Positions 8,009 to 12,364 of a stretch of DNA of 55,504 nt are shown piece by piece. The position numbers and the translations under genes were made by a program. Location of the stretch: the NCBI GenBank assembly GCA_026387915.1, contig JAPLKS010000023.1, positions 1-55,504 on the forward strand, read 5' to 3'. The DNA comes from Gemmatimonadota bacterium (GTDB taxonomy: Bacteria > Gemmatimonadota > Gemmatimonadetes > Gemmatimonadales > Gemmatimonadaceae). Below the pieces are notes generated by a model. The model made no database searches. It was not told the origin of the DNA and saw only the letters and a program-made list of their open reading frames with translations. Position 1 is the first letter of the stretch, and the number at the start of each line of letters is the position of its first letter.

Positions 8009-8437
8009 ATGAATTCCGACCAAACTCCATTTGAGATGCTGGGTGGTGACGCCGCCGTTCACCAACTCGTAGACCGTTTCTACGACCTCATGGAACGCTC
8101 GCCGGAGGCCGCGCATGTGCGCGCCATGCACGCAACGTCACTCACGCAGTCGCGGATGAAACTCTATCTGTTTCTCAGTGGCTGGCTTGGAGGGCCGCCG
8201 CTCTACGTCGAACGCTACGGCCATCCACGACTGAGGGCGCGGCATCTGCCCTTTGCTATCGGCGCACTGGAGCGCGACGAATGGCTCTGGTGCATGCAAC
8301 GGGCTCTCGCTGAACAGTCCATACCAGCAGACGTGCGTCACGATCTGTTCGAGAAGCTGAGTAGCCTCGCTGATCACATGCGCAATCAGCCAGATCCTGA
8401 CGCGCCGGCGCATACGATGCCAATTTTCCCCGCCTGA
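8009..8437 (+). CDS. Truncated haemoglobin, group II
   Basis: 142 residues with the 2/2 globin layout of group II (trHbO/YjbI-like) proteins. The phenylalanine/tyrosine-rich B helix (V-D-R-F-Y-D-L-M) carries a tyrosine at the expected distal site. The proximal histidine sits in R-A-R-H-L-P-F, and the group-II tryptophan in D-E-W-L-W-C-M. The segment F-L-S-G-W-L-G-G-P-P-L-Y is typical of the group. Likely role: haem-based binding or detoxification of O2, NO or peroxide in the cytoplasm. The stop codon lies 9 nt from the convergent aminotransferase-like gene, with no obvious terminator between them. Confidence 0.9.
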   Translation: MNSDQTPFEMLGGDAAVHQLVDRFYDLMERSPEAAHVRAMHATSLTQSRMKLYLFLSGWLGGPPLYVERYGHPRLRARHLPFAIGALERDEWLWCMQRALAEQSIPADVRHDLFEKLSSLADHMRNQPDPDAPAHTMPIFPA

Positions 8438-9866: not shown

Positions 9867-11243
9867 ATGTCCGTATTATTTTCCGACGCCTGGGCGCATG
9901 CGCTGGGTGACGCGCTGAATGCGAGCGCAGCGTATCGCGACGCCGCCGCAACCTGGGAGGGCGCCCTCCTCCTTGAATGGTTGCCAGATCCGCAGTCGCC
10001 ACCTGAGCACTCGGTGTACCTCGATCTTTGGCACGGCGCCTGTCGTGAAGCCAGACTGGGTACCACCGCCGATACCGAACGCTCGGCGTTTGTGCTGCGC
10101 GGTGACGCGGTCACGTGGGATGCGCTGCTCGATGGACGGACCTCTCCGATTACAGCGTTGCTTCGCGGCAAGCTCAAACTCTCCAAAGGAAGTTTGGCTG
10201 CGTTGCTCCCGCACGTCGCGGCGGCGAACGCGCTGGTGGAGGCCGCACGACAGGTGCAGAACTCGGTTGCGGCAGTCAGCCTCGCGCCCGTGTCGGTGCC
10301 CGAGCCAGTGGCTCGCAGCGTCGTCGCGGCTCCTGCCGCCGGGGAATCCGTGCGGCGTTTTCAGAGTATTAGCGCCACCGCCCTGCGCTACGACACGCCA
10401 CCGATGCGGCTGTGGGACAAAGCCAAGCGACTCGGCATCTGGAATCCGGCCGATATTGATTTTTCGCAGGATCGAAAAGATTGGGCGGCGCTCGCCGACG
10501 ATGAACGCGATTTTCTCTTGCGACTCACGGCGATGTTTGAAGCCGGCGAAGAGTCAGTGACCGCCGACATTCTCCCGCTCATGATGGCGATCAGCGACGA
10601 AGGACGGCTCGAAGAAGAACTGTACCTCACATCGTTCCTCTGGGAAGAGGCGAAGCACGTTGAGGTGTTTCGGCGCTTCTTTGACGATGTCGCCGGTGTG
10701 CGCGAAGACCTGACCCGGTACCACACGCCGTCGTATCGCCGAATCTTCTACGACGAACTGCCACACGCCATGGGGCGGCTCCGAACGGATCGTTCGCCAA
10801 TAGCACAGGCCCGCGCGTCGGTGACGTACAACATGATCGTCGAGGGCGTGCTCGCGGAGACGGGATATTACGTCTACCACCAAGTACTGCAGACACGCGG
10901 CATTATGCCCGGGATGCAGAAAGTGTCCGCGTTACTCAAGGGCGATGAATCGCGGCATCTGGCGTACGGCGTTTTTCTGTTGTCACGGTTGGTTGCCGAG
11001 CACGGCGAACCATTATGGCAGGCCATTCTCGCTCGCATGAATGAGCTGGTGGACCCTGCCGTGCAGATCGTGCACGAAGCCTTTGCGTGCTACGATCCCG
11101 CGCGTGTGCCCTTTGGACAGAGCCCAGGCCCGTACGTGGAGTACGCGATGGGGCAGTTCGAGAAACGCATGGCGCGCATTGAACGGGCGCGCACGCAAAC
11201 GCTCGCGGATGTGTACGGCAGCCAGGAATACGAAACGAACTGA
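9867..11243 (+). CDS. R2-like ligand-binding oxidase fused to an N-terminal SCP2-like domain
   Basis: 458 residues. Residues about 5-130 look like an SCP2 sterol/lipid-transfer domain (W-E-G-A-L-L-L-E-W-L, L-D-L-W-H-G, F-V-L-R-G-D, G-K-L-K-L-S-K-G). After a linker, residues 175-450 form an R2lox ferritin-like oxidase (R-L-W-D-K-A-K-R-L-G-I-W-N-P-A-D-I-D-F). Metal ligands align with one constant offset of 159 to the Geobacillus R2lox numbering I recall: Glu228, Glu261, His264, Glu326, Glu361 and His364. The ether cross-link pair also fits: Val231 and Tyr321 (T-Y-N-M-I-V-E-G). Known R2lox proteins hold a Mn/Fe centre and a long-chain fatty-acid ligand. A lipid-binding N-domain suggests ligand delivery. 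The usual R2lox length is about 300 residues. Confidence 0.9.
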   Translation: MSVLFSDAWAHALGDALNASAAYRDAAATWEGALLLEWLPDPQSPPEHSVYLDLWHGACREARLGTTADTERSAFVLRGDAVTWDALLDGRTSPITALLRGKLKLSKGSLAALLPHVAAANALVEAARQVQNSVAAVSLAPVSVPEPVARSVVAAPAAGESVRRFQSISATALRYDTPPMRLWDKAKRLGIWNPADIDFSQDRKDWAALADDERDFLLRLTAMFEAGEESVTADILPLMMAISDEGRLEEELYLTSFLWEEAKHVEVFRRFFDDVAGVREDLTRYHTPSYRRIFYDELPHAMGRLRTDRSPIAQARASVTYNMIVEGVLAETGYYVYHQVLQTRGIMPGMQKVSALLKGDESRHLAYGVFLLSRLVAEHGEPLWQAILARMNELVDPAVQIVHEAFACYDPARVPFGQSPGPYVEYAMGQFEKRMARIERARTQTLADVYGSQEYETN

Positions 11244-11248
11244 CGCCG

Positions 11249-11275
11249 GTGGGGCAGCCTCTAGCGACGCCCCAC
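11249..11275. terminator. Weak hairpin between convergent genes
   Basis: A 7-bp stem (GTGGGGC paired with GCCCCAC) with a 13-nt loop spans the gap between the R2lox-like gene and the convergent secreted CotH-like gene and enters the end of the latter. No T-run follows, so terminator function is uncertain. Confidence 0.3.
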
Positions 11276-12364
11276 GCAGGTGCGCAGCAGACGTTCGTCC
11301 ACATCGCGCGGGGTCTTGATGGCGTCGTAGAATTCGTCGAAGTATGCCAGTGACTTCTTCACGTTGGCCGGCGTGATCAGCTTGCCAACCTCATCGGCAT
11401 ACAACGCATAGATCGCGTCTTTTTTGGCACGGAAGAGCGCGAGCGCCGCTGGCAGACTGGCCGCGTGCGCGCAGTAGCCGCGGTACAGGCGATCGGTCAC
11501 CCGCCGAATGGGAAGTGACGGATCGACGGTCGCGTACGGCGCGTTCACCGCGCCGGAGAAATCAAAATCATACGCGATCGGAATGACCGGACTCCCGTCT
11601 GGCTTGGCGACGAGCTCGGTGTTATGCAGTCCATTGAACGAAAAATCAGTGTTGGCAATCAGGTACTCAAATACGTACGCCACCGCGGCCGCATCAGCGT
11701 CGAGGTCGTCTGCCTGCGCGCCTTTTAGCTTCGTGATCTTCCCGCCGAGTCGTACCGCCATCTCGGCGGGATCCTCGAACACAAATCCGTAGCGCGTTTC
11801 TTTGGCCTTTCCGGTGGCGCTGTCCGTCCACGTGACGCGGAGCGCGCGGGCGCGGTGACTCGACGGCGTGAGCAGCTGATAAATCCGATAGAGCTGCAGC
11901 TCCTTGAGGACGTCCTGTTCGGCACCGTCCGCGTCGCGGCAGACACTGACCATCTTCGGTTTTTCCAAGCCTTCGAAGAGTGTGCGCTTGGTTGTCTTCC
12001 CACTGAAGTTCAGGCGCAGGGGCGGCAAATCGCAGTGCTTGAGACGCCAAATGCCATGCGTTTTGATTTTGAGCGGCACGGCGACAGGGTTGCCGTCGGC
12101 ACCCGCATACGACATGGTGGCGCTGCGGTACGGTGATGCCGTGTCGCGGTCGCTTCGCAGCCGCTTCAGGTTGACGGTGATATTCACCGCCAGCGGTGCT
12201 TCGCTCGCAAAGAGCGGAACGGCGCGGCTCGCGACTTTTGCTGAGTCTGCCGCCTTGATGGGTGGCGGCGAGCCCCCAGCAGACTGCGCGGTGAGTGATG
12301 GTGTCGGCAGGCCAACGAACAGGGCCGTCATGGCGACGGCGGCGACACCGTTGATCACTCGCAT
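11261..12364 (-). CDS. Secreted protein, distantly CotH/kinase-like
   Basis: 367 residues starting with a signal peptide (MRVINGVAAVAMTALFVGLP region). I do not recognise a named family with certainty. P-L-K-I-K-T-H-G-I-W-R near residue 97 and D-L-P-P-L-R-L-N-F near 112 recall the N-lobe of CotH-type spore-coat kinases. I-A-N-T-D-F-S-F-N-G-L-H-N-T-E-L (237-251), followed by I-A-Y-D-F-D-F-S-G (263-271), recalls an atypical-kinase catalytic loop and metal-binding Asp segment (candidates Asn238, Asp240, Asp266, Asp268). If correct, it would be an extracytoplasmic protein or glycan kinase. It is last in the minus-strand run after the GNAT gene, with an 83-nt gap. Confidence 0.55.
   Translation of the reverse strand: MRVINGVAAVAMTALFVGLPTPSLTAQSAGGSPPPIKAADSAKVASRAVPLFASEAPLAVNITVNLKRLRSDRDTASPYRSATMSYAGADGNPVAVPLKIKTHGIWRLKHCDLPPLRLNFSGKTTKRTLFEGLEKPKMVSVCRDADGAEQDVLKELQLYRIYQLLTPSSHRARALRVTWTDSATGKAKETRYGFVFEDPAEMAVRLGGKITKLKGAQADDLDADAAAVAYVFEYLIANTDFSFNGLHNTELVAKPDGSPVIPIAYDFDFSGAVNAPYATVDPSLPIRRVTDRLYRGYCAHAASLPAALALFRAKKDAIYALYADEVGKLITPANVKKSLAYFDEFYDAIKTPRDVDERLLRTCVGRR

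Follow-up and report, generated by a model that had tools for sequence, protein, structure and literature searches.

What does an R2lox oxidase act on, and why should one carry a lipid-binding domain in the same chain? When R2lox was described, in 2009, it had a fatty acid bound; from then on its role in the cell has been termed unknown (PMC6060897). Both questions are raised by one gene in the window considered here, the whole stretch of 55,504 nucleotides of Gemmatimonadota DNA that was analyzed. The initial annotation read this gene as an SCP2-like domain fused to an R2lox oxidase, and proposed that the SCP2 part is a built-in lipid partner for an enzyme of unknown function. That description of R2lox was long accurate and is now slightly out of date; in 2024, lysates with GkR2loxI were reported to deplete alkanes, and the protein was described as an alkane monooxygenase (PMC10867098). 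We regard the mutant controls of that claim as weak, with the remaining alkane differing by only 11-21% between the wild type and a metal-ligand mutant (PMC10867098). Related bacteria with neighboring SCP2 and R2lox genes, some of them beside dehydrogenase genes, suggest that R2lox oxidizes long-chain lipids or alkanes brought by a carrier.

Two domains in one chain

The open reading frame was found where the initial annotation had placed it (Table 1), and profiles confirmed both domains. By profile and fold, the N-terminal domain is an SCP2 domain. PF02036 (gathering score, 21.3) matched residues 19-106 with 25.5 bits when residues 1-154 were searched alone and with 23.5 bits in the whole protein. 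In a sequence search, the Thermus SCP2 chains 1wfr and 2cx7 matched residues 4-132 (E ~1e-32), within a few residues of the limits 1-135 first proposed. Modeled alone with AlphaFold (pLDDT 94.3), the domain superposed on 2cx7 with a Z of 21.9 in VIA-align (TM 0.84/0.89, 48-49% identity), and Foldseek with the N-terminal part of the full model also gave 2cx7 (TM by target 0.90, 48% identity). The SCP2 fold on which the initial annotation had staked its case was thus recovered by both profile search and structure prediction. Z values of about 9-10 were seen with human, yeast, and insect SCP2, and of 8-10 with archaeal SCP2, the C-domains of alkylsulfatases, and UbiJ; among the matches is 1pz4 (Z 9.7), an SCP2 structure with a bound C16 fatty acid. 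We infer that the SCP2 domain of the fusion likewise binds lipid.

Table 1. Positions of the fusion gene, its domains, and its active-site residues in the window. Residue numbers are those of GkR2loxI (in parentheses; PMC10867098) plus 159.
Feature	Position	Strand	Remark
SCP2-R2lox fusion gene	9867..11243	+	ATG start, TGA stop, 458 aa
SCP2 domain, residues 1-134	9867..10268	+	PF02036 above gathering score; 2cx7 fold match
Linker, ~residues 135-162, Pro/Ala/Val-rich	10269..10352	+	low model confidence
R2lox domain, residues 163-449	10353..11213	+	NF006202; 3ee4 and 4ac8 matches
E228, metal ligand (E69)	10548..10550	+	
V231, valine of Tyr-Val ether cross-link (V72)	10557..10559	+	
E261, bridging metal ligand (E102)	10647..10649	+	
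H264, metal ligand (H105)	10656..10658	+	
Y321, tyrosine of ether cross-link (Y162)	10827..10829	+	
E326, metal ligand (E167)	10842..10844	+	
Y334, conserved cavity tyrosine (Y175)	10866..10868	+	role discussed in PMC4118035
E361, metal ligand (E202)	10947..10949	+	
H364, metal ligand (H205)	10956..10958	+	

The remainder of the protein is R2lox by every measure used. NCBIfam NF006202 (curated cut-off, 315) scored 398 bits over residues 170-449, and Mycobacterium tuberculosis R2lox (3ee4) matched residues 163-449 with an E of 1e-74. The R2lox part of the AlphaFold model superposed on 4ac8 with a Z of 39.5 and an rmsd of 1.5 over 294 residues; Foldseek of the fusion model found R2lox structures with a TM by target of up to 0.95. 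The set of six metal ligands (four Glu and two His) is complete, and together with the Val/Tyr pair all eight residues lie at the constant offset noted in the initial annotation. These residues, as well as G68, A171, and Y175 in GkR2loxI numbering, are invariant in 50 of 50 SCP2-linked R2lox rows (35 fused, 9 adjacent, and 6 operon).

It could be asked whether the protein is instead a ribonucleotide reductase (RNR) beta subunit that carries an unusual addition at its N terminus, given that its C-terminal part bears the Pfam label Ribonuc_red_sm and that it is the sole protein of this type in its genome. We rejected this on profile scores and on the RNR of the genome, and put its chances at next to nothing. 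The best RNR beta model gave 48.9 bits (cut-off, 237), compared to 398 bits for the R2lox model, and the Val/Tyr cross-link residues are present. The only RNR large chain found in the genome is the B12-dependent class II NrdJ (NF006417, 1126 bits), with no class I large subunit; class II enzymes work without a beta subunit, and the fusion is therefore not an RNR subunit.

In the AlphaFold model of the whole protein, run with a 51-row alignment (pLDDT 90.8, pTM 0.82), the two domains are joined by a linker of low confidence (pLDDT 49-64 at residues 141-170), with disorder at about residues 140-165. The linker is 33 to 50 residues long in 20 homologs, measured over the span from residue 132 to residue 176 of the window protein.

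Where SCP2 and R2lox occur together

Full fusions were found in 8 of 298 Gemmatimonadota genomes. Their occurrence is patchy, extending to 2 of the 18 genomes within the window's own genus; a 95% identical fusion is present in an independent genome (G082). A search of 84,980 species representatives, of which the best 80 loci were kept, also met SCP2-R2lox fusions in Acidobacteriota, Chloroflexota, Calditrichota, Balneolota, and one Myxococcota record. At least 35 fused rows were collected, from at least six phyla. An artifact of assembly or reading frame was considered and rejected, since many independent genomes carry the same fusion across these phyla. Among 26 genomes searched whole, no fusion-bearing one has a second SCP2 of the fused subfamily.

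Whether the fusion arose once is left undecided by the trees, which neither show nor exclude a single origin. On the R2lox tree, the fused state needs seven changes and the starred branches force only one; the SCP2 tree, built on few columns, is poorly resolved. In three fused proteins (L046, L049, and L050), part of the linker is FPGD- or FPGS-like and similar to the C terminus of stand-alone SCP2 (IFPGE in L059 and L065), as might be expected if neighboring genes had been joined. In one genome (G218, locus L024), an SCP2 gene of the fused clade has a reading frame that breaks past the linker, perhaps a decayed fusion of which SCP2 alone was kept.

SCP2 is fused or adjacent to R2lox in Gemmatimonadota, Acidobacteriota, and Balneolota/Bacteroidota. 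At four loci (L058, L064, and L082 in Acidobacteriota, and L078), R2lox follows immediately on the end of an SCP2 gene. Within a deep R2lox clade of Gemmatimonadota, SCP2 is adjacent in 5 of 8 genomes and within 2 kb in 2 more. Counting fusions and genes within 2 kb, SCP2 is linked in 15 of the 24 Gemmatimonadota genomes with R2lox; chance would give about 0.1% per genome at roughly one such SCP2 gene per 3.5 Mb, the genomes here being related.

This deep clade (L019-L023, L027, L030, and L031) is divergent (about 33-42% identical), and the one member scanned (L141) scores below the NCBIfam R2lox cut-offs. An LPG_synthase_TM membrane protein is encoded upstream in at least two of its loci. The SCP2-R2lox pair at L141, in genome G281, has LPG_synthase_TM-like and transketolase-like neighbors, and the same neighbors flank a stand-alone SCP2 gene (L146) in G057, a genome without R2lox. 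Apparently, this locus has either gained or lost its R2lox.

Linkage to SCP2 is not a universal trait of R2lox. In 251 Chloroflexota genomes, with about 36 R2lox genes between them, a single gene is fused, and no linked SCP2 was found beside the remainder. About 12 Acidobacteriota R2lox genes, of the Acidobacteriae type, are without a linked SCP2, and the haloarchaeal and Streptomyces homologs examined had no such linkage.

Companion genes of R2lox

In 111 Deinococcota genomes, 6 of about 24 R2lox genes stand one or two genes from SCP2. A zinc alcohol dehydrogenase (ADH) gene lies between the two in two sublineages, with an extra small gene there in L065, and in Thermus-like members an aldehyde dehydrogenase (ALDH) gene comes after R2lox. 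The resulting cluster, SCP2, zinc ADH, R2lox, and ALDH (L142:8628-12482, L127, and L129), looks like a complete chain-oxidation pathway. At L142, the single locus read further out, the cluster has beside it a divergent gene for a long-chain fatty acyl-CoA ligase, accompanied by genes for proteins without a Pfam match.

On Rhodococcus plasmids (L149:7804-18846 and L150), the R2lox cluster encodes an NDMA-dependent ADH, R2lox, an FAD oxidoreductase (ferredoxin reductase), a ferredoxin, an ALDH, SCP2, a CoA ligase, and MCE lipid-transport proteins. The FAD oxidoreductase and ferredoxin are candidates for the native electron donors of R2lox. A Mycobacterium plasmid carries R2lox with a CoA ligase, an ADH, and an SCP2-like protein of 136 residues that scores 18.8 bits, just under the PF02036 gathering score. 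SCP2, R2lox, and ADH therefore share a cluster in some Deinococcota, Rhodococcus, and Mycobacterium, and most of these clusters also hold an ALDH and a fatty-acid CoA ligase. The GkR2loxI cluster includes an ADH, an ALDH, and a CoA ligase (PMC10867098). A second R2lox of Geobacillus kaustophilus, on plasmid pHTA426 (L152), has genes for an adenylate-forming ligase, an iron-dependent ADH, and an ALDH in its vicinity, with no annotated SCP2 at the locus.

The actinobacterial SCP2 proteins share about 60-66% identity with one another, and BLAST found no convincing similarity between them and the fused SCP2 domain. Judged from these sequence comparisons, they are another subfamily, so that R2lox and SCP2 probably became partners on more than one occasion, apparently through independent recruitment of SCP2 from two subfamilies. 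This bears on whether the SCP2 domain might be structural, aiding dimerization, stability, or membrane docking and holding no lipid for the enzyme. SCP2 domains are also present, as fold matches of the N-terminal domain, in Eis-type acetyltransferases and alkylsulfatases, where they need not act as carriers; the SCP2-like domains of Eis acetyltransferases are part of an oligomeric scaffold. A mere scaffold role poorly explains a pairing that also occurs as separate genes and, in Actinomycetota, with an unrelated SCP2 subfamily, and we consider it quite improbable.

No ADH, ALDH, or CoA ligase gene was found beside the window fusion gene, whose neighbors encode a truncated globin and an aminotransferase, besides unrelated proteins. 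The globin (PF01152) is encoded on the same strand two genes upstream (8009-8434, +). Convergent with the fusion gene is one for a protein of 367 residues (11261-12364, -) with a signal-peptide-like N-terminal stretch and no Pfam match. No promoter or terminator signals beyond chance were seen. When all open reading frames within 7 kb of R2lox were clustered over 80 loci, no neighbor of the fused genes recurred across phyla; those found are lineage local, and a conserved operon that would name the pathway of the fusion was rejected.

A putative carrier-coupled oxidase

We think it rather likely that SCP2 keeps a long aliphatic chain, the substrate (or product), ready for R2lox, which oxidizes or hydroxylates this chain. 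The SCP2 domain would load an alkane, a fatty acid, or a similar long aliphatic chain out of the membrane or cytosol and hand it over in cis, by way of a flexible connection some 30-45 residues long, into the hydrophobic channel of its R2lox partner. We imagine that the dinuclear Mn/Fe (or di-iron) site, with electrons from a ferredoxin or reductase encoded elsewhere, would activate O2 there and then hydroxylate (or desaturate) the chain. In the relatives, the resulting alcohol may pass to ADH, then to ALDH, and finally to the CoA ligase. This model builds on the two domains, the complete active-site residues, the repeated SCP2 linkage, and the genes that accompany R2lox in Deinococcota and Actinomycetota. 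Chain hydroxylation, which we favor with moderate confidence, accounts most simply for a chain-binding carrier domain, a two-electron oxidant, and the downstream ADH and ALDH of relatives. Counting against it are the non-universal linkage in Chloroflexota and Acidobacteriota, a window gene without pathway neighbors, and the fact that SCP2 of the fused subfamily is common without R2lox.

SCP2 might also sit on the other side of the reaction, taking the oxidized chain or a tightly bound fatty acid off R2lox, or shielding it. The fatty acid that copurifies with R2lox blocks the site for O2, and has been regarded as an analog that is not turned over (PMC6060897, PMC4118035); for an enzyme blocked in this way, a release partner would make sense. 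The Deinococcota SCP2 genes stand as much beside ADH as beside R2lox. It is the recurring direct fusion and adjacency of SCP2 to R2lox itself that makes a role for SCP2 after the reaction unlikely in our view.

The nature of the lipid can be questioned as well. The N-terminal domain matches the fold of UbiJ-SCP2 (Z 8.4), several fusion hosts come from groups in which menaquinone is the usual quinone, and class-C loci in Gemmatimonadota include an LPG_synthase_TM-family membrane protein, all of which would suit an isoprenoid or quinone-type substrate rather than an alkane or fatty acid. For UbiJ, the proposal is that its SCP2 domain keeps intermediates of ubiquinone available to hydroxylases (PMC9499169). 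However, UbiJ is a distant SCP2, at 14% identity, and the ADH, ALDH, and long-chain CoA ligase of Deinococcota and Actinomycetota fit chain degradation, leaving a quinone-type substrate distinctly unlikely.

Oxidation of a carrier-borne aliphatic chain is the preferred reading. The fused and adjacent SCP2, and the clusters with ADH in other lineages, favor the view first put forward, that the lipid partner is built in. More tentatively, one can envision SCP2 as a partner that R2lox has recruited time and again, and the fusion, in which this is clearest, as a single-chain, carrier-coupled Mn/Fe oxygenase fed by its own lipid-binding domain. Should this hold, carrier-delivered hydroxylation of lipids or alkanes would be ancestral to R2lox or common among its members. 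The substrate class is narrowed by natural fusion and gene linkage of R2lox with a lipid carrier and by the presence of ADH, ALDH, ferredoxin, and CoA ligase, and the fusion offers a single-chain enzyme, along with several gene clusters, for direct study of that role. A literature search, with subscription papers outside its scope, found no paper that treats R2lox and SCP2 together, none on SCP2 and alkanes, and none on the context of Rv0233; an earlier description is possible.

How does the fusion compare with known systems? M. tuberculosis R2lox (3ee4, 4ac8) and GkR2loxI (4hr0) have the same fold, metal ligands, cross-link pair, and cavity tyrosine, at 40-45% identity, but the solved R2lox proteins start near fusion residue 163 and none has an SCP2 domain. 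The Thermus thermophilus SCP2-like protein (2cx7; TT1886, 1wfr), so close to the N-terminal domain in fold and sequence, stands alone and has no assigned function, whereas the window SCP2 is tethered to an oxidase. In SdsA1 and Pisa1, metallo-beta-lactamase fold hydrolases, an enzyme for long alkyl chains and an SCP2-type domain likewise share a single chain, with the SCP2-type domain C-terminal rather than N-terminal. GkR2loxI has its R2lox chemistry in common with the fusion (PMC10867098); its cluster has no reported SCP2, whereas the window fusion lacks the ADH, ALDH, and CoA ligase neighbors. In the UbiJ system, too, an SCP2 domain is thought to present a lipid to oxygenases, the Ubi hydroxylases (PMC9499169). 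There, the partners are separate proteins, the substrates are quinones, and the SCP2 is distant. The Ubi hydroxylases are flavin enzymes. In COQ7-COQ9, a dinuclear oxygenase of the ferritin-like type has a lipid-binding partner of its own, as proposed here for the fusion, although COQ9 has a TetR-like fold, a quinone substrate, and no sequence relation to the fusion.
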